This document shows, in pieces, positions 204 to 7,782 of a DNA stretch of 10,993 nucleotides (position 1 is the stretch's first letter; every line of letters begins with the position of its first letter). Under the pieces are notes generated by a model. The model was not told the origin of the DNA, searched no databases, and saw only the letters and a list, made by a program, of their open reading frames with translations. The translations under genes were made by a program, and so were the position numbers. Source of the DNA: an uncultured Clostridia bacterium (GTDB taxonomy: Bacteria; Bacillota_A; Clostridia; Christensenellales; CAG-138); contig CAMORL010000048.1 in the NCBI GenBank assembly GCA_946623765.1, positions 1-10,993 on the forward strand, read 5' to 3'.

Positions 204-659
204 CTATTCGATGGCGTTCTTTTTACGATGCAGAATCGCGTTTCGGAACAAACAACCGACCAGAATGCCGATCGATACGCCGATAAGATCGATCCATACG
301 TCGGCAATCATTGCGCCCCGATCGGAGAATATCTGCAGCGTTTCGTCCAGAAACCCCGCCAGAAATCCGGCTGCGGCGCTGTAGAGAATGTTTCCGCGAA
401 GGCAGAACACCAGCAGAAAAGCGAGTGCCGCGAATTCCGCAACATGCGCGATCTTTCGTGCGATATGATCGCCCTGTGCACGAATTCCAACGAAGCGAAG
501 CAGCGGATTGACGATATGCTCTGCAAACCAGCCGCTTTCGCCTGCGGATATGCTTCTCGGAAGGAGCGACTGGGTAAAGATGAACGCAGCGACAAGGACC
601 GTTACGGTCAGCAGAATGATCCGCTTTGCTTTGATCCGTTTATGCTCAGCCGGCTGCAT
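204..659 (-). CDS. VanZ-like family membrane protein
   Basis: A 151-residue integral membrane protein of the VanZ-like family. A basic N terminus is followed by a first membrane helix (about residues 13-30) and at least two or three more. The family signature is clear: RKIAHVAEF near residue 65, then FLDETLQ and DVWIDLIGV toward the C terminus. VanZ itself gives low-level teicoplanin resistance, but most family members in polysaccharide operons have no proven role. The ATG at 657-659 is chosen because AAGGAAG (666-672) lies six bases upstream. An ATG at 684-686 would add nine residues but has no ribosome binding site. The chosen start overlaps the end of the dehydratase gene by 14 bases, which implies translational coupling in the operon. 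Confident in the family, not in the function. Confidence 0.85.
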   Translation of the reverse strand: MQPAEHKRIKAKRIILLTVTVLVAAFIFTQSLLPRSISAGESGWFAEHIVNPLLRFVGIRAQGDHIARKIAHVAEFAALAFLLVFCLRGNILYSAAAGFLAGFLDETLQIFSDRGAMIADVWIDLIGVSIGILVGCLFRNAILHRKKNAIE

Positions 660-2709
660 GCAGCGCTTCCTTCTCTTCCGCACCATGCGTGCCGTACACT
701 GTGATCGGCTTGTTTTCCGATCCGTTGCTCTCCGGATGATAGGTCGACACCATGCCGATCAGCAGATTGCGGATGTGATCGTCGTTTGCGTACGCGGCTT
801 TCATCAGCGTGCCGAGGTTCTTGAAAAACAGTTCCTGATCAAGCGGGATCGGCGTGCCGATGTGGATCAGCTCGTTTTTCGTTTTCTTCAGTCCCTCTGC
901 CGCCATCAGCTTTTCTTCATACAGCTTTTCGCCGGGACGCAGCCCGGTGTACCGGATCTCGATGTCCACATCGGGTTTCAGACCCGCTTGCTTGATCAGA
1001 TTTCTTGCGAGCGTATCGATCTTGACGGGACTTCCCATATCGAGGACAAAGATTTCTCCGCCCTTTGCATAAGTTCCGGCAAGCATGACCAGACTGACCG
1101 CTTCCGGAATCGTCATGAAATAACGAATGATGTCCGGATGCGTGACCGTAACCGGTCCGCCCTTCTCGATCTGTTTCTTGAACAGCGGGATGACGGAACC
1201 GTTGCTTCCCAAAACGTTTCCGAAGCGCACGGCGACAAACTCCGTTTTGCAGTTGCGGAACACTTCGCCCGTCCCGTCCTTATCGGCATTCTCGTATCCT
1301 TCATGCGTAAAGAACTGCGGAATTTCGGCGGCTTTCCCTGCTTTGACTTTGGCGTCAAAACACTGTACGACCATCTCGCACAGACGCTTGCTTGCGCCCA
1401 TTGCATTGGTCGGATTGACGGCCTTGTCCGTGGAGATCAGAACAAACCGCTCGCAGCCGTGGATCATCGCCGCATAGGCCGTTTTATACGTGCCGAATAC
1501 ATTGTTCTTGATTGCCTCGCACGGGCTGTCCTCCATCAGCGGTACATGCTTATGCGCCGCCGCATGGTAGACGATCTCGGGGCGGTACGTGCTGAATATC
1601 TTGAACATCCTGCGGCTGTCGCGTACGGAGGCGATCAGAACCACAAGATCCAACGCCGGATAACGGTCCTTCAGTTCCTGCTGAATGTCGTATGCGTTAT
1701 TCTCATAGATATCAAGGATAATCAGCTGCTTCGGATCGTGCGCTGCAATCTGTCGGCAAAGCTCGCTTCCGATGGATCCGCCGCCGCCCGTTACAAGCAC
1801 GGTCTTGCCGTTGATGAACGAATAAACGCCGGAAAGATCTGCGCGGATCGGATCGCGTCCAAGCAGATCCTCCACCGCAACGTCCTTCATCGCGCCGACC
1901 GTGACCTGCCCGGAGATCAGCTGATAGATGCCGGGAAGCTGCTTGAGTTCGCAGTCGGTTTCGTTGCAGATCGCAAGAATATCGCGTCTCTGTTCCGCCG
2001 TCGCGCTCGGAATGGCAAAGTAGATCTTATCGATATGATACTTGTCAATGCTGGTCAATATCTCGTCCCGCCCGCCGACAATCTCAACGCCTTCCAAAAA
2101 CCGGTTCTTTTTATTCGGATCGTCGTCAATGATGCAAACGACCTTATCCTGTGAATCCGGATTTGTGAGGATGTCCTTTAAGATCATCTGTCCGGCATTG
2201 CCTGCTCCGATCAGCATGACAAGCGACCGACTTGCCCGGTTCTGAATCCGACGGGTCCTGAAATCCGCAAGCAAACGGTAGGAAAACCGGATACAGATCA
2301 AAAGGATCGTCTGAATCAATCCGCCGCCGATATAGTAAGAGATCGGCATGCGGTGAATGATCAGCGTGATTGCGGCGGCATGCACGGCGGAAAGCAGTAT
2401 CGAGACTTCAAAGGTACGGATCAGTTCTCTGAGCCCGACATATCGAAGCAGCGGCCGGTAAAGCCGGAATATCCAAAGGACCAGGATCGCGAATGCCGCA
2501 AAGAACGGTATAAACCAGCCGTAAGCTTCCAGATACTGTTTTTCGATCCTTGAGAAAATAAAATCGAACCGCATCCAGAGCGCAAGAAAATAGGATAAAA
2601 CGACTGCCAAATAGTCGCAAACAGCAAGCGTAATCGGCAGAAGCATCTGCTTCCGGCTTTTTCGGAACACGCCCGGCTGATTGTCTTGTTCGTTCTGTTG
2701 TCTGTTCAT
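646..2709 (-). CDS. Membrane-bound nucleotide-sugar 4,6-dehydratase, CapD/PglF/FlaA1 family
   Basis: A 687-residue protein of the long FlaA1/WbpM/PglF type, expected to convert UDP-N-acetylglucosamine to a 4-keto-6-deoxy sugar nucleotide for envelope polysaccharide or glycan synthesis. Residues about 22-145 form four membrane helices. A first Rossmann-like domain carries GAGNAGQ (168-174). The catalytic SDR domain carries the nucleotide-binding TGGGGSIGSE (307-316), TDKA (427-430) and NAMGASKR (435-442). In the last motif Met437 stands where classical SDR enzymes have the catalytic Tyr, as in other long membrane-bound members, and Lys441 is kept. PDIIRYFMTIPEA and LRPGEKLYEE are also typical. 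About 35 extra residues (roughly 452-487) lie between CEMVVQ and the FVAVRFGN motif. A GGAG ribosome binding site lies eight bases before the ATG. It sits 60 bases after the LCP gene in the same operon. Exact substrate is inferred. Confidence 0.93.
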   Translation of the reverse strand: MNRQQNEQDNQPGVFRKSRKQMLLPITLAVCDYLAVVLSYFLALWMRFDFIFSRIEKQYLEAYGWFIPFFAAFAILVLWIFRLYRPLLRYVGLRELIRTFEVSILLSAVHAAAITLIIHRMPISYYIGGGLIQTILLICIRFSYRLLADFRTRRIQNRASRSLVMLIGAGNAGQMILKDILTNPDSQDKVVCIIDDDPNKKNRFLEGVEIVGGRDEILTSIDKYHIDKIYFAIPSATAEQRRDILAICNETDCELKQLPGIYQLISGQVTVGAMKDVAVEDLLGRDPIRADLSGVYSFINGKTVLVTGGGGSIGSELCRQIAAHDPKQLIILDIYENNAYDIQQELKDRYPALDLVVLIASVRDSRRMFKIFSTYRPEIVYHAAAHKHVPLMEDSPCEAIKNNVFGTYKTAYAAMIHGCERFVLISTDKAVNPTNAMGASKRLCEMVVQCFDAKVKAGKAAEIPQFFTHEGYENADKDGTGEVFRNCKTEFVAVRFGNVLGSNGSVIPLFKKQIEKGGPVTVTHPDIIRYFMTIPEAVSLVMLAGTYAKGGEIFVLDMGSPVKIDTLARNLIKQAGLKPDVDIEIRYTGLRPGEKLYEEKLMAAEGLKKTKNELIHIGTPIPLDQELFFKNLGTLMKAAYANDDHIRNLLIGMVSTYHPESNGSENKPITVYGTHGAEEKEALHAAG

Positions 2710-2769: not shown

Positions 2770-4362
2770 TTACCGGAAGTCCACATATACTTCGTTGATC
2801 ACGCTGTCTTTGGTATACCAAAGATCCGTGCTGTAATTCCACTTCAGTTTGATCGGATTGTCAAAAGCTTCATTCAGTGCGTCTCCGCTTTTTTTCAGCT
2901 TCTTTTCCAACTCCCGCATCGTTTTGAGATACTGTTCAAACTGCGCAGTCTCCTCGTCGGAAGCTTTTCCGTCATAATGCTTCTGACGCCAGTCATCTGC
3001 AAGACGATATACCTGCAGCAAATCCGTATAATCCTTCCAGCACAGCGCGTATGCGGATTTCTGCTCCTCGCTCATTGCCGCCGAATCCGGCAGCGCATGA
3101 ACGGCGTCAAACAGTTTTTTGGTAAGATTCAGGTACTGAATCGCCCGGAATCCGTCCTTATGCAGAAACTTCTCGTATTCCGTGGAGTTGTATCCGATCG
3201 GTGCGGCGTCGATCCCGTACACTTTCTTCAGAATGTCCTTTCGCGCCTGCTGATCGATGAAGCAGTATGCCCATTCGTACTGCAGATGCGTTTCGCCCTG
3301 AATGCTGTACGTCTGAATGCTGTCCGCATCGATTTCCTTCGCAAAATTCGCCAGCGCAGCGGTCTGGGCAGGCGTGGTATTCGTATAGACATTGTCGCCC
3401 ATCGTCTTGAGAAGGTCCGGGATCATGGAAAGCGTGCCTTCCTGCTTGAGCTTCTTGAAGATTGCGACCAGCATCTTTCTCTGACGTGCGGTCCGCTTCG
3501 AATCCAATCCGCCGGCGGATCTGCGCATGCGCATGTATGCCATGACGCCCTGTCCGTCAAGATGGCGTCTGCCGCGTCCGATCGTACGTCCGTCAAACGT
3601 ATGCAGTGTGATATCCACATCAAAGTCGATCCCGCCGATCATATCGACCAGATCAATCAGCGCCTGGAAATCAACGCCGTAATAATACGGAATGGAAACG
3701 CCGCCGAGCCATTCCTCTGCCGTACGGCAGCTCAGTTCGAAGCCGGCTTTCGGATTCTGCATACCGCCGCCGACGTTGAATACGCCGTTGAATTTGTAGA
3801 ATCCGGAATAACCGGTCACCTTCGTCAGACAATCGCGCGCGATGGAAATCAGGCTGACTTCTTTCGTATCGAAGTTAACCGCCAGAACAATATTGGCGTC
3901 GGTATGCGGCATCGACCCGCTCGTCGATTTGCCGTTTTCATACGCGTCTATCCCGAACAGCGCAATATTCACGATCCCGTGCGTTTCGACGGATTGTTCT
4001 TCCGTCGGCGGTTCCGTCGGAATCGGCTCTCCCGTCTGAATCAGCTCTTCCGGATTACCGGTCGGCTCGATTGCCGGAACCGGTGAAGCCGGCATCGGGA
4101 TCGGCGTAGCGCCCGGTTCATCGGAGGGCAAATACGCGCTGATGTCGAATATCGGCGTCGCTTCTGCCGTTGCGTTTGCTGTCGTATACACGGTTTTGTC
4201 GAAGAACGCGTCCGGCCGTTTCAGAATATGCCACGCATAGATTCCTCCCGCAGCCAGCGCCAGCACGAGTACGCCGAGAATACTCCAGAGGACGATCTTT
4301 TTTGTCTTCGATTTCTTTTTCGATTTTTGTTTCAGGGTTTTCTGCTCTGTCAATTCCGTCAT
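2770..4362 (-). CDS. LytR-CpsA-Psr (LCP) family protein with C-terminal extension
   Basis: A 530-residue membrane-anchored protein of the LCP family, which transfers lipid-linked polymers (capsule, teichoic acid) onto peptidoglycan outside the cell. A very basic cytoplasmic stretch (residues 1-22) precedes one membrane helix (about 23-45). A low-complexity Pro/Thr/Glu linker (about 64-125) follows, then the LCP domain (about 130-310). Its signatures are NIALFGIDA (132-140), SIARD (173-177), KFNGVFNVGG (190-199), YYYGVDF, and the Arg-rich YMRMR...KRTARQRKML stretch (276-298). The retained Arg176 and Asp177, with the later arginines, correspond to the family's pyrophosphate/metal-binding residues. 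After the domain lies a long, charged, mostly helical tail (about 395-500) that is not part of the LCP fold. GGGAG lies eight bases before the ATG. The position after the kinase gene matches a CpsA role; assignment to capsule attachment is inferred. Confidence 0.9.
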   Translation of the reverse strand: MTELTEQKTLKQKSKKKSKTKKIVLWSILGVLVLALAAGGIYAWHILKRPDAFFDKTVYTTANATAEATPIFDISAYLPSDEPGATPIPMPASPVPAIEPTGNPEELIQTGEPIPTEPPTEEQSVETHGIVNIALFGIDAYENGKSTSGSMPHTDANIVLAVNFDTKEVSLISIARDCLTKVTGYSGFYKFNGVFNVGGGMQNPKAGFELSCRTAEEWLGGVSIPYYYGVDFQALIDLVDMIGGIDFDVDITLHTFDGRTIGRGRRHLDGQGVMAYMRMRRSAGGLDSKRTARQRKMLVAIFKKLKQEGTLSMIPDLLKTMGDNVYTNTTPAQTAALANFAKEIDADSIQTYSIQGETHLQYEWAYCFIDQQARKDILKKVYGIDAAPIGYNSTEYEKFLHKDGFRAIQYLNLTKKLFDAVHALPDSAAMSEEQKSAYALCWKDYTDLLQVYRLADDWRQKHYDGKASDEETAQFEQYLKTMRELEKKLKKSGDALNEAFDNPIKLKWNYSTDLWYTKDSVINEVYVDFR

Positions 4363-4532: not shown

Positions 4533-6053
4533 TCAGAGAAGATTCGAAAGAATTTCCTCAGACGCGCGCATTACAGCTTTCCACTCCTCCGGATAACGCT
4601 GTTTCACGCTTTGCCACTCCGAATACCCCGTCTTCGTTCCGTGGATATCGCTTCCGACGGCAACGATCTTGCCTTCTTTCATCCAGTCGCGGAGATAACC
4701 GCTTTGAATGTACTTCATCAGCGCCGAAACATTGACCTGTCCGCTGACGTTCTCCATGGAAAGGAGCGTTTCTACCTGTTTCTTTTCGTAGCGGTCCACA
4801 TGCGCAAGAACGATCTGAATATCCGAGCGCGCGCTGAGCGCTTCGACGGAGTCGATCAAGCGGTCCGACCATGCCGCAAACGGCATCTCTAAAAGCAGCA
4901 GATTCGTTCCCATCAGGCAAAGGTCCTCGATATGCGGCATCTGATCGATCCCTTCGAATGCAAGGACCTCCGCCCCGAGGATGATCTTCGGCGCATCCCG
5001 ATCCAGCTGCGGTTTCAGATTCATCCAGCAGCGTGCGCGCTGCTCCAGAAACGCCTCCACGCTCATCTGTTCCCCATAGAAATGCGATGTTGCGCAGATC
5101 ACGTCGACACCGGCATCCTTTGCAAGCCGAACCTGCTTCAGAGAGGTTTCGACGTCCTTGCTGCCGTGATCGCAGCCGGGAAGAATGTGCGCGTGAAAGT
5201 CAATGTCCGCAGCGCTCTTGGCAGACGGCGCCTTCCGCGTAACCGCGGTTCTTTCCGGTGCGGAATTCGCACCATAGCCATACTTGTAGCCGTATTTGTA
5301 ACCGTACTTATAGCCGTACTTATACCCGTATTTGTAGCCGTACTTGCCGCCCTGCTTGAGATTCAGATCGTTGATAACGACGCCGCAGATCCGTGCGCCT
5401 GCGCTTTGCAGCGTGCTCTCGGCCTCCGTGAGATCTCTCTGCTTTGTTTTGCCTGACCGGGTGACAAGCACCATTCCGTCGACAACGCGGGATACGATCT
5501 GCGCGTCTGCGACTTCGTTGATCGGAGGTGTGTCGATGATAATATAATTGTATCGTCTGCGAAAGCGGTCGATCGCGTTCTGGAACGCGGCGGACGCCAG
5601 CATCTCCGACGGATTCGGAGGAATCTTGCCGCAGCAAATAATCGACAGCGGAATGCCGTCTACCTGATATACCTCACAGACGTCAACCTTTGCAATGAGG
5701 TCGCTCATTCCGTTTTTGGTGTGAATGTTCCATAGTCTTGCAATATTCGGCTTGCGCATATCGCAGTCGATGAGGAGCGTCTTTTTCCCGAGCATCGCAA
5801 AAGAAACCGCAATGTTCGACGCGGTCAGGCTTTTCCCTTCGGAAGGGTTCGCGCTCGTAACGCCGAAAACCTTGCATCCGCGGTCGTTCATGGATGCCAC
5901 GCTGTACATCAGATTCGTACGGAGCTGAACATAGGCTTCGCGAATGGCGAATGCGCTTGTATCGGTCAGGATCTTTTTCCGGTTCTCCTTAATCAGCGCG
6001 CGATCTTCCTGTTTGCGATTCTGTTCGGAATTCTTTCGTGATAACTTACTCAT
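4533..6053 (-). CDS. Fused CpsD-type tyrosine autokinase and CpsB-type PHP tyrosine phosphatase
   Basis: A 506-residue fusion of two capsule regulators that are normally separate genes. Residues about 25-235 are a BY-kinase (CpsD/Wze type), a P-loop ATPase that autophosphorylates on tyrosine when activated by its membrane partner CpsC. Seen are Walker A with SEGKS (71-75), Walker A' LLIDCDMRKP (93-102) and Walker B IIIDTPP (171-177). Residues 237-260 are six perfect KYGY repeats, the tyrosine cluster. After a linker, residues about 283-506 are a PHP-fold phosphatase like CpsB/YwqE: DFHAHILPG (285-293), Glu362, EMPF (389-392), LAHVDRY (416-422) and GSDIHG (467-472). The usual DDG after the first histidine motif reads DHG (295-297). 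The ATG at 6051-6053 is chosen because GAGAGGAG (6061-6068) lies seven bases upstream. It overlaps the cpsC-like gene by eight bases, so the two are probably coupled. Both domain calls are firm; the self-regulation is inferred. Confidence 0.93.
   Translation of the reverse strand: MSKLSRKNSEQNRKQEDRALIKENRKKILTDTSAFAIREAYVQLRTNLMYSVASMNDRGCKVFGVTSANPSEGKSLTASNIAVSFAMLGKKTLLIDCDMRKPNIARLWNIHTKNGMSDLIAKVDVCEVYQVDGIPLSIICCGKIPPNPSEMLASAAFQNAIDRFRRRYNYIIIDTPPINEVADAQIVSRVVDGMVLVTRSGKTKQRDLTEAESTLQSAGARICGVVINDLNLKQGGKYGYKYGYKYGYKYGYKYGYKYGYGANSAPERTAVTRKAPSAKSAADIDFHAHILPGCDHGSKDVETSLKQVRLAKDAGVDVICATSHFYGEQMSVEAFLEQRARCWMNLKPQLDRDAPKIILGAEVLAFEGIDQMPHIEDLCLMGTNLLLLEMPFAAWSDRLIDSVEALSARSDIQIVLAHVDRYEKKQVETLLSMENVSGQVNVSALMKYIQSGYLRDWMKEGKIVAVGSDIHGTKTGYSEWQSVKQRYPEEWKAVMRASEEILSNLL
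5274..5345 (-). repeat. Six in-frame 12-bp units coding KYGY (tyrosine cluster)
   Basis: Seventy-two bases encode KYGY six times without interruption, giving 12 tyrosines and 6 lysines in 24 residues. All six 12-bp units differ from each other in DNA, yet every difference is synonymous (AAG/AAA, TAC/TAT, GGC/GGG/GGT). That points to selection on the peptide rather than a fresh slippage expansion. Tyrosine-rich clusters are the autophosphorylation sites of BY-kinases; a YGX-type repeat is known at the end of pneumococcal CpsD. Confidence 0.95.
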
Positions 6054-6828
6054 TGACGATCTCCTCTCCCAGCGCGACTTCCCAGGTGTCGATCTCATCG
6101 CTGCTGATCACGATCATCGGCACCGTGCCGATTACCGGGCAGTTGCTGACCTTCTGAACCTCTTCGGAGGTATAGATGGTCGTATCCAGATAAGCGCGCA
6201 GCAGGAAGAATACGGCTGCAATAATAAACCCTGCCGCAAAGCCGATCACGACGTTGCGCGTGAGATTCGGACTGGAAGGCGATCTCGGAACGGTCGCATA
6301 GTCCACAATCTCCACGCCGCCCGCTTTCGTGATGCGGACGATCTGATCCGGCACGTACTTTGCAAAGGTGTTTGCAATGTTTGCGGACAGCACAGGATTC
6401 TCCGTGGTAATGTCGATCTGTATGAGCTTGGTTCCGTTCGGAACGGAGACCGACGTATACCCCGACAGCGACGCCGTCGTAATCTTCCTTTCGTTGTACT
6501 CCGGGTGTTCCTCCATGAAGCGCTCCGAGACCACATCAAGAACCGAATTGCTCTTTACAATGACCTGATACGTCTTGATGAGGTTATCCGCCGCCGCCAG
6601 CTCGCTGCTGCTGATGGAGCCCGTCTGATTCTGTTCCGCCGTCGTGAACACGTACATCGTCGTATGCGCCGTGTATTTCTTTTTGATCAGAAAGTGCGTC
6701 GCAAGACCGACGCCGAGCGCGACAACGAGTCCGGCGATCAAGATGAAGAACCACTTCGAGAGCAAAATCTGGAAAACATCCGCCAGATTGATCTCGATCT
6801 CATTTTTGTCCTTTCTCACCTGTTCCAA
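6046..6828 (-). CDS. Wzz/CpsC/YveK-type polysaccharide chain-length regulator and kinase activator
   Basis: A Gram-positive Wzz-domain protein of about 260 residues, usual for CpsC/CapA/YveK. Such proteins span the membrane twice, control polymer length, and present a cytoplasmic C-terminal tail that activates the partner tyrosine kinase. A short cytoplasmic N terminus with the helix NLADVFQIL is followed by membrane helix 1 (about residues 26-48), an external domain, a Pro-rich stretch PRSPSSPN, membrane helix 2 (about 191-213), then a tail of nearly 50 residues ending EEIVNE. The tail's EEVQKVSNCPVIGTVP is typical of the family. The start is a TTG. The TTG at 6826-6828 is preferred because AAAGGA (6838-6843) is nine bases upstream; another TTG at 6832-6834 would add two residues but is only three bases from that site. 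It is the first gene of the operon and overlaps the kinase gene by eight bases. Confidence 0.9.
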   Translation of the reverse strand: MEQVRKDKNEIEINLADVFQILLSKWFFILIAGLVVALGVGLATHFLIKKKYTAHTTMYVFTTAEQNQTGSISSSELAAADNLIKTYQVIVKSNSVLDVVSERFMEEHPEYNERKITTASLSGYTSVSVPNGTKLIQIDITTENPVLSANIANTFAKYVPDQIVRITKAGGVEIVDYATVPRSPSSPNLTRNVVIGFAAGFIIAAVFFLLRAYLDTTIYTSEEVQKVSNCPVIGTVPMIVISSDEIDTWEVALGEEIVNE

Positions 6829-7095
6829 AGTCAATAATCCTTTCTCTGCGTTTTCGAAACCGCTTGTCTGCCGTATTGCGTGATCAGCCGCGGTTCATTC
6901 ATTATTTCGTTCAGTTAGATGCGGTTTTTTCGTGTTGATACAATTCCGTACAGCATGGACACATTACCGCATACTAAAAGATAATAGCATTATACACCAT
7001 TCATTCGGTATCGTCAATATTGCCGGATCTTTTGTTCAATTACAGGTCCTCGACCGCCTGATCTGTCGGAATCTCCGAAACGGTTGTCGATTTCT
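6829..7095 (-). promoter_or_regulatory. AT-rich structured 5' leader of the polysaccharide operon
   Basis: There is no gene in this stretch of about 270 bases downstream of promoter P1. On the transcribed (minus) strand it contains several self-complementary pairs: TCGGA-GAT-TCCGA (7066-7078); GGTC-GAG-GACC (7045-7055), flanked by CAGG/CCTG; a 7-bp pair ATGCGGT/ACCGCAT (6966-6972 with 6919-6925) closing a 40-base loop; and AACCGC/GCGGTT (6890-6895 with 6858-6863), just upstream of the ribosome binding site. None is followed by a T-run, so no attenuator is seen inside the leader. LoaP-type antiterminators are known to bind hairpins in the leaders of their target operons, so one of these may be the loading site. 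That assignment is inference. Confidence 0.5.
6989..7017 (-). promoter_or_regulatory. Sigma-A promoter P2 of the polysaccharide operon
   Basis: The minus strand reads TTGACG (7012-7017), a 17-base spacer, then a perfect TATAAT (6989-6994). Transcription would begin near 6982, giving a leader of about 150 bases before the cpsC-like gene. This is the promoter closest to the operon and the one with the better -10 box. Confidence 0.8.
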
Positions 7096-7217: not shown

Positions 7218-7742
7218 TTACGGTTCCTGTCCGGGCTTCCCAATATCCGCGTTTTCTCCGACGTACTCGATGGAGCACCATATATTCCGGAACATGGCGT
7301 CCCCGCCGCCGAGGGCGATCTGTACCGTTTTGCGGCTCTTGTTGACCTTCAGAACCTTTGCTTCCATACCGACGAGCGGTCCGCCGATAAAGGCGATCTT
7401 CGTGCCGACTTTTACGACCTGTGAAACGTCAATAAGTCCCTCGCAGCGCTTCAGCCAGTCGACAAACGCAAGGTCTTCGCCGTGCAGCGCGCAAACGCCG
7501 TCCTCATAGCGCAGAACCTTGAGAACACCGGAATACCGCAAAATCCTGTTCCAATCCGGATTGTCCTCCGCATCGAAAAACACATATCCCGGCAGCAGCC
7601 GCGCCCTGGTCCGTTTCATTCCGCCCGCATCCGGTTTGTTTTGAACGGCAAGCGGCGAAAACGCTGCGTACCCGCTTCGCTTCAGAAGGTCAATGACAAG
7701 CCCTTCCTGACCGCTTTTGCAAAACAGACAATAGCTTTCCAC
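7218..7742 (-). CDS. loaP: LoaP-like NusG paralogue, transcription antiterminator
   Basis: A 174-residue NusG-family protein. The N-terminal NGN domain (about residues 1-100), which contacts RNA polymerase, shows YCLFCKSGQE at the start and ARLLPGYVFFDAE (47-59), a hallmark of NusG and its paralogues. A C-terminal KOW domain (about 108-145) shows VKVGTKIAFIGGPLVGMEAK and KVNKSRKTVQI. Position beside a polysaccharide operon, rather than in the secE-nusG-ribosomal protein cluster, marks it as a specialised paralogue. In Firmicutes these are LoaP, which helps RNA polymerase read through terminators in long biosynthetic operons. The GTG at 7740-7742 is chosen: AAAGGAG (7750-7756) lies seven bases upstream, while the ATG at 7779-7781 abuts the -10 box of the gene's own promoter and cannot be translated from it. 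The exact subfamily is inferred from sequence and context. Confidence 0.88.
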   Translation of the reverse strand: MESYCLFCKSGQEGLVIDLLKRSGYAAFSPLAVQNKPDAGGMKRTRARLLPGYVFFDAEDNPDWNRILRYSGVLKVLRYEDGVCALHGEDLAFVDWLKRCEGLIDVSQVVKVGTKIAFIGGPLVGMEAKVLKVNKSRKTVQIALGGGDAMFRNIWCSIEYVGENADIGKPGQEP

Positions 7743-7749
7743 CGTGCCG

Positions 7750-7756
7750 CTCCTTT
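7750..7756 (-). promoter_or_regulatory. Ribosome binding site fixing the GTG start of loaP
   Basis: The minus strand reads AAAGGAG seven bases before the GTG at 7742. Conserved NusG similarity begins immediately after this GTG, and no comparable site precedes the upstream ATG at 7781. Confidence 0.85.
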
Positions 7757-7782
7757 CGCCCCGCCGTTCCCACGTTTTCATT

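Follow-up and report, generated by a model that had tools for sequence, protein, structure and literature searches.

Bacterial tyrosine kinases of the BY-kinase type phosphorylate the tail of a neighbouring subunit within a ring. The closest described systems are CpsC-CpsD with CpsB in S. pneumoniae, CapA-CapB-CapC in S. aureus and Wzd-Wze-Wzb in L. rhamnosus. In each, the head of the locus encodes a co-polymerase, a kinase with a tyrosine cluster and an LCP protein, with a PHP phosphatase encoded nearby. The available parts of two reports describe a kinase tail that alternates between high and low phosphorylation and is reset by the phosphatase (PMC12220298, PMC4574921), and a third, likewise available in part, describes removal of phosphates from the Wzc tyrosine cluster by Cps4B (PMC2777267). 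How this cycling controls polymer synthesis was called undefined or elusive in extracts of papers from 2009 (PMC2777267) and 2015 (PMC4574921), and newer work may differ.

Here we describe a locus in a 10,993-nucleotide stretch of DNA (the window) that is built from the same protein families as these three systems. There, however, kinase and phosphatase are separate proteins, whereas here they form one chain in which the tyrosine cluster is an internal tether. Wzc-type PCP-2a BY-kinases, which act with the LMW-PTP Wzb, share the kinase fold and the tyrosine-cluster logic with this protein. They too are fusions within the same pathway, but their partner is the membrane co-polymerase rather than a phosphatase, and their phosphatase has another fold than PHP.

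One gene encodes a BY-kinase and a PHP phosphatase

A preliminary description, made from the letters of the window alone, had claimed a single uninterrupted frame carrying both enzymes. This was confirmed and its coordinates were correct; the gene lies on the minus strand, from 6053 to 4533, and the plus-strand frame is broken by stops (Table 1). Translation would start at the ATG at 6053-6051, which has AGAGGAG upstream, and the gene shares its first 8 bases with the end of the CpsC gene. Both halves fold confidently in the predicted structure, while their relative orientation is undefined in the model (pTM 0.52).

Table 1. Features of the window and the matches on which they rest.
Feature	Position	Strand	Basis
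BY-kinase/PHP phosphatase fusion gene (P0001), 506 aa	4533..6053	-	PF19567 and TIGR01007 matches
Kinase domain, residues ~20-232	5358..5996	-	Walker A 67-77, A' 93-102, B 170-177
Tyrosine-rich tether, residues 237-260, six KYGY units, 12 Tyr	5274..5345	-	Repeat, Tyr count, predicted disorder
CpsB/CapC-type PHP phosphatase domain, residues 284-506	4536..5204	-	PF19567
NusG-type antiterminator, LoaP-like, locus head	7218..7781	-	PF02357; NF033641 73.8 bits, below cut-off 125
CpsC/CapA-type polysaccharide co-polymerase	6046..6834	-	PF02706, PF13807; TIGR01006 144.7 bits, below cut-off 296
LCP (LytR-CpsA-Psr) glycopolymer transferase	2770..4362	-	PF03816; TIGR00350 above cut-off
Membrane nucleotide-sugar dehydratase, presumably CapD-like	646..2709	-	PF02719 380 bits
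VanZ-like protein, end of gene row	204..686	-	PF04892

The kinase half scored 187.9 bits against TIGR01007 (CpsD/CapB-type BY-kinase; cut-off 108.05) over residues 39-242. As had been proposed, this kinase carries Walker A (SANPSEGKSLT), A' (LLIDCDMRKP) and B (YIIIDTPP), all of them intact. Across the fused relatives described below, Walker A and A' were intact in all 14 rows covering them and Walker B in all 15. EX2RX2R is the oligomerisation motif known from CapB/Wzc work. At this site (window 5939-5919, minus strand) the protein reads EAYVQLR, with Val for the middle Arg, as do all 14 fused rows covering it, and six split relatives have EX2IX2R. The middle Arg was found in none of the 27 rows, fused and split, that cover the site; hence it was not used as family-defining. 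Because the kinase lacks this residue, it may not form rings as CapB and Wzc do. By analogy with its relatives, the kinase half would act as a tyrosine autokinase together with CpsC.

A tyrosine-rich tether joins the two enzymes

A tyrosine cluster that the preliminary description had overlooked is the tether joining kinase and phosphatase. Its DNA is a 12-bp imperfect tandem repeat (5275-5346, 81% matches over 6 copies), and pLDDT is below 50 over residues 234-273, tether included, so that the segment is predicted to be disordered. In 12 fused loci, 56-66 residues separate the end of the kinase from the PHP half, and these include 12-16 Tyr in every case, with 12 in the window. The tyrosine-rich segment found behind the kinase domain in TIGR01007-type proteins is present here, but internal rather than terminal. 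In seven split relatives, in which kinase and PHP are separate genes, a stretch of the same kind forms the C-terminal tail of the kinase (7-14 Tyr). The fusion therefore appears to have made the substrate tail into a linker, and this placing of the cluster is the strongest argument for a phosphorylation cycle within the complex.

The PHP half retains most of the Cps4B active site

The PHP half has the fold of YwqE and Cps4B and scored above the cut-off for PF19567 (CpsB_CapC; 74.2 bits versus 27, residues 284-475). Against the Cps4B equivalog NF041488 it reached 34.4 of 400 bits, under the NCBIfam cut-off, and the fusion is not filed as Cps4B. In the accessible part of the Cps4B report, the metal ligands are His5, His7, Asp14, His42, Glu80, Glu108, His136, Asp199 and His201; Asp3 contacts the ligands, and Arg139 and Arg206 contact phosphate (PMC2777267). 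The claim that the phosphatase is complete held for eight of the nine ligands (His287, His289, His324, Glu362, Glu389, His418, Asp469 and His471), and the equivalents of Asp3 (Asp285) and Arg139 (Arg421) are also kept. It did not hold at two positions at which the fusion differs from YwqE and Cps4B: Asp14 is His296, and Gly476 stands in place of Arg206, the second of the phosphate contacts. A further difference is that the PHP domain here is the C-terminal part of a larger protein.

None of the 27 aligned PHP rows, whether fused or split, varied at the equivalents of D3, H5, H7, H42, E80, E108, H136, R139, D199 and H201. Given the conserved ligands and Arg139, the binuclear M1/M2 site with its key arginine looks intact, while the third metal site is altered. 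Both active-site changes are shared by the split loci L010, L013, L015 and L016 and are therefore older than the fusion. In Cps4B, according to the part of the report at hand, an R206A mutant keeps about 40% of its activity (PMC2777267). Phosphotyrosine phosphatase activity would be expected of the PHP half by analogy with such relatives.

Both halves show purifying selection. Over 55 pairs among the 11 complete fused genes, pN/pS averaged 0.10 (maximum 0.18) for the kinase and 0.25 (maximum 0.38) for the PHP half, values that are rough because synonymous sites are near saturation. The faster evolution of the PHP half, together with the loss of Arg206 and the change of Asp14 to His, would suit a degenerate, non-catalytic domain retained as a structural or docking module. 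We consider this improbable, however, as all M1/M2 ligands and Arg139 are invariant in the 27 rows, the split relatives have the same changes, and pN/pS does not exceed 0.38 in any pair.

The fused frame is shared by a clade and apparently arose once

The preliminary description had raised the worry of an assembly join. The fusion was found as one frame in 11 other loci (L009 is truncated by a contig end), from 11 MAGs of different species at 72-83% identity in search listings. Their titles read Clostridia, Clostridiales, Lachnospiraceae or Bacillota, and five of the 11 name a ruminant stomach compartment; three further fused proteins (P0002-P0004) are in the databases. The evidence for the fusion comes from MAGs throughout, and since all relatives found are metagenomic, faulty assembly or a frame error in sequencing could be suspected. 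The recurrence of one frame in so many species at this divergence makes such an artefact hardly conceivable, and misassembly is ruled out for the clade. The gene is thus a real in-frame fusion of opposing enzymes, with the same architecture across a clade.

In a 28-row combined tree, with kinase and PHP sequences side by side, the 15 fused rows formed one clade (100/98) with no split row nested among them. The split locus L013 was its sister (99/95), followed by split L010, L015 and L016 (100/99). Separate trees were built from 22 rows each, leaving out six distant split rows. The PHP-only tree kept the fused rows together with weaker support (87/92). In the kinase-only tree they were not one clade (2 changes; L017 fell inside at 36/0), but a single fused clade was not rejected by the kinase-only data (p-AU 0.344). 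In the seven next-closest loci (L010, L013-L017 and L020), kinase and PHP are adjacent genes, the domain-nearest PHP start lying 5-19 bases past the kinase stop or, in L020, before it. The fusion apparently had a single origin, from two adjacent genes; the direction, two genes to one, is read from the rooting of the tree on more distant split loci.

Such close gene pairs are also what would be expected if the fusion were neutral, that is, if a stop codon between co-translated genes had been lost and the product behaved like two separate proteins with no new regulation. In line with this, L010 and L015 have PHP in the same frame with a single stop between, tyrosine tails of the same kind occur in fused and split proteins, and split proteins share the active-site changes too. 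Against it, the single frame has persisted in all 15 fused rows, with no split row among them in the combined tree, and the distance between the two domains varies only within the narrow range given above. On this evidence we regard neutral fusion as rather unlikely.

The possibility that stop codons are read through in the split relatives was also considered and rejected: the frame of PHP relative to the kinase stop is near chance. PHP follows in the kinase frame in six of 15 split loci (L010, L014, L015, L018, L019 and L045) and in another frame in nine, and L014 and L045 have two stops between the kinase and the same-frame PHP.

The preliminary description had noted that the window holds no separate cpsB-like gene, and PF19567 was indeed matched only by the fusion among the 8 window ORFs scanned. 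The equal amounts of kinase and phosphatase that it proposed follow by construction, provided that one chain is made. In 8 of the 11 complete fused genes, including that of the window, the PHP half has no in-frame ATG, GTG or TTG just upstream, and free PHP would therefore not arise from a simple internal start there. A GTG is present at this place in L001, L003 and L012, and in the partial L009 an ATG comes right before the DxHxH motif, at the start position of the split relatives; free PHP is therefore possible in these loci.

One fusion, L006, comes from a MAG labelled Lachnospiraceae and is absent from the listed matches of the 103-genome family survey described below. Its sequence is sister to that of L011, and it may be a misbinned contig or a transfer.

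Kinase-PHP fusions appear to be rare

As queries for protein searches we used the complete fusion, its PHP half alone and a profile of 75 rows. For the complete fusion, the best 120 of 3879 matches were considered, and for the profile the best 120 of 4506, so that distant relatives may be missed. Among the matches listed, the only fused proteins were P0002-P0004, plus P0005, in which PHP is out of frame past the first motif. In genome surveys, PF19567 matched 58 of 103 genomes of the family (with the fusion frame in 10), 64 of 396 in an order sample and 166 of 398 in a phylum sample, where frames were assessed among the matches listed. Frames of at least 388 aa outside the clade numbered three in the order list and six in the phylum list, again among the matches listed. 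G142 and all six phylum frames were examined, leaving out the partial or weak matches G392 and G101. None of the six phylum frames was a kinase fusion; in five, the BY-kinase is encoded in a different frame that overlaps or adjoins PHP, and in L083 none was found. G142 holds a different fusion (L078:569-2251, minus strand, 560 aa), with a CpsB/CapC-type PHP domain first and an ADP-ribosylglycohydrolase.

Neither the genome surveys nor the matches listed in the protein searches contained a complete kinase-PHP fusion outside the clade. The preliminary description had allowed that the architecture might prove common and already characterised; within the limits of these searches, complete fusions are confined to one clade. 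No paper describing it was found among the matches listed from the full-text literature, a body of text outside which most subscription papers lie. The architecture is apparently rare in the collections searched and is made wholly of known families.

A possible second, independent fusion is P0025, a metagenome protein of 356 aa known from one contig, which combines the C-terminal portion of a kinase, a short tyrosine-rich stretch and a PHP domain of the L014/L020 lineage. It matched 38 of 197 genomes in the family of G018, its nearest relative among the genomes compared, which is itself split. No stop-free frame over both halves was present among the listed matches of these 38 genomes, and the three matches that span both halves (G990, G899 and G915) all contain stop codons. 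P0122-P0130, in which PHP parts are linked to other partners, were not counted, as they are probably chimeric assemblies or fusions of another kind. Within this set, P0123, P0125, P0126, P0127 and P0129 carry near-identical PHP pieces on unrelated partners, P0126 and P0127 being joined at the same residue, and are probably chimeric.

Other phosphatases and kinases in the fused genomes

No second PF19567 match was found in 10 of 11 genomes of fused relatives; G008 has one further match, a separate CpsB-type gene. An LMW-PTP (PF01451) was present in 1 of the 11 (G006). From these counts, the fusion is the sole phosphatase of either kind found in nine of the 11, bearing in mind that MAGs may be incomplete.

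The main targets of the PHP domain could instead be other tyrosine-phosphorylated proteins, reached in trans, such as CpsC, sugar-nucleotide enzymes or a second BY-kinase, the fusion then being a recruitment device. CapC1 and CapC2 dephosphorylate not only CapB but also its targets, according to the portion of the report available (PMC6441080). Four of the 11 genomes have a second BY-kinase over the cut-off and no second PF19567, one of these kinases being a Wzz-kinase chain with a tyrosine tail. Seven, on the other hand, have no second BY-kinase over the cut-off, the tether would be the nearest likely substrate, and the S. aureus dehydratase CapD is described in the same portion as not phosphorylated (PMC6441080). 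We therefore view action mainly in trans as possible but on the unlikely side. The Wzz-kinase chain, in G005 (L086:3398-4939), ends in YGYGYGYYYG, and the 10-kb stretch around it gave no PHP match.

A proposed phosphorylation cycle

The reading that we favour, and think probable on balance, is that one protein is both a capsule or exopolysaccharide BY-kinase and its phosphatase, held at a fixed ratio and resetting itself locally. A single cytoplasmic protein would fill the CpsD role (BY-kinase) and the CpsB role (PHP phosphotyrosine phosphatase) and would dock at the membrane on CpsC. Neighbouring kinase domains would phosphorylate the tether tyrosines in trans, and the PHP domain on the same or a neighbouring tether would strip the phosphates. 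The phosphatase would thus stay concentrated at its substrate, 1:1 with the kinase, so that the phosphorylated state, which would be the regulator of polymerisation, would tend to be reset quickly and locally. The two activities, docking on CpsC and a role in polymer length are expected from the behaviour of relatives, while dephosphorylation in cis or within a ring, and the resetting behaviour, are conjecture, as is the intramolecular cycle with a self-resetting switch put forward in the preliminary description.

In the available part of one report, CpsD carrying a C-terminal GFP was functional (PMC4574921), so cargo behind the tyrosine cluster is tolerated. According to a partly accessible report, Wzd did not stably retain Wzb, the separate phosphatase of L. 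rhamnosus (PMC4340800); the main effect of tethering would therefore be on locality and ratio. A more speculative form of the proposal, which we put forward only tentatively, is a self-contained cycle in one chain, in which the tether would alternate between the kinase sites of the complex and the PHP site to which it is itself attached. The number of KYGY repeats, that is, tether geometry, and not enzyme abundance, would then set the phosphorylation level and the rhythm of assembly and disassembly, and thereby polymer length.

With kinase, substrate tail and phosphatase in one natural chain, ratio and place are fixed, so whether local, stoichiometric dephosphorylation suffices for normal polymer control becomes testable. 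The adjacent two-gene relatives are matched natural controls for the fusion.

Gene content of the locus

The genes of the window run in the order LoaP-like antiterminator, CpsC, fusion, LCP, CapD-like dehydratase and VanZ; genes for an esterase and an oxidoreductase lie outside this row. By gene content, this would be the putative head of a Wzy-type polysaccharide locus, and the CpsC/CapA-type protein is presumed to anchor the kinase at the membrane and to activate it. Among 11 fused loci, LCP was matched in all, CpsC in 10 (L009 is truncated), the LoaP-like gene in nine (absent from L006; L009 truncated), the CapD-like gene in nine (absent from L008; the L001 contig ends) and VanZ in seven. 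In L013, the split sister, the genes present are those for CpsC, kinase, PHP, LCP, the CapD-like protein and VanZ. A capsule-type locus thus seems largely conserved across the fused relatives.

An Rfam scan of the whole window gave no matches. A 12/12 promoter-like site lies upstream of the LoaP-like gene (7812-7783, minus strand), and a terminator-like hairpin with a T-run lies between this gene and CpsC (7198-7169, minus strand), both as consensus matches only; the hairpin is a possible target of antitermination.
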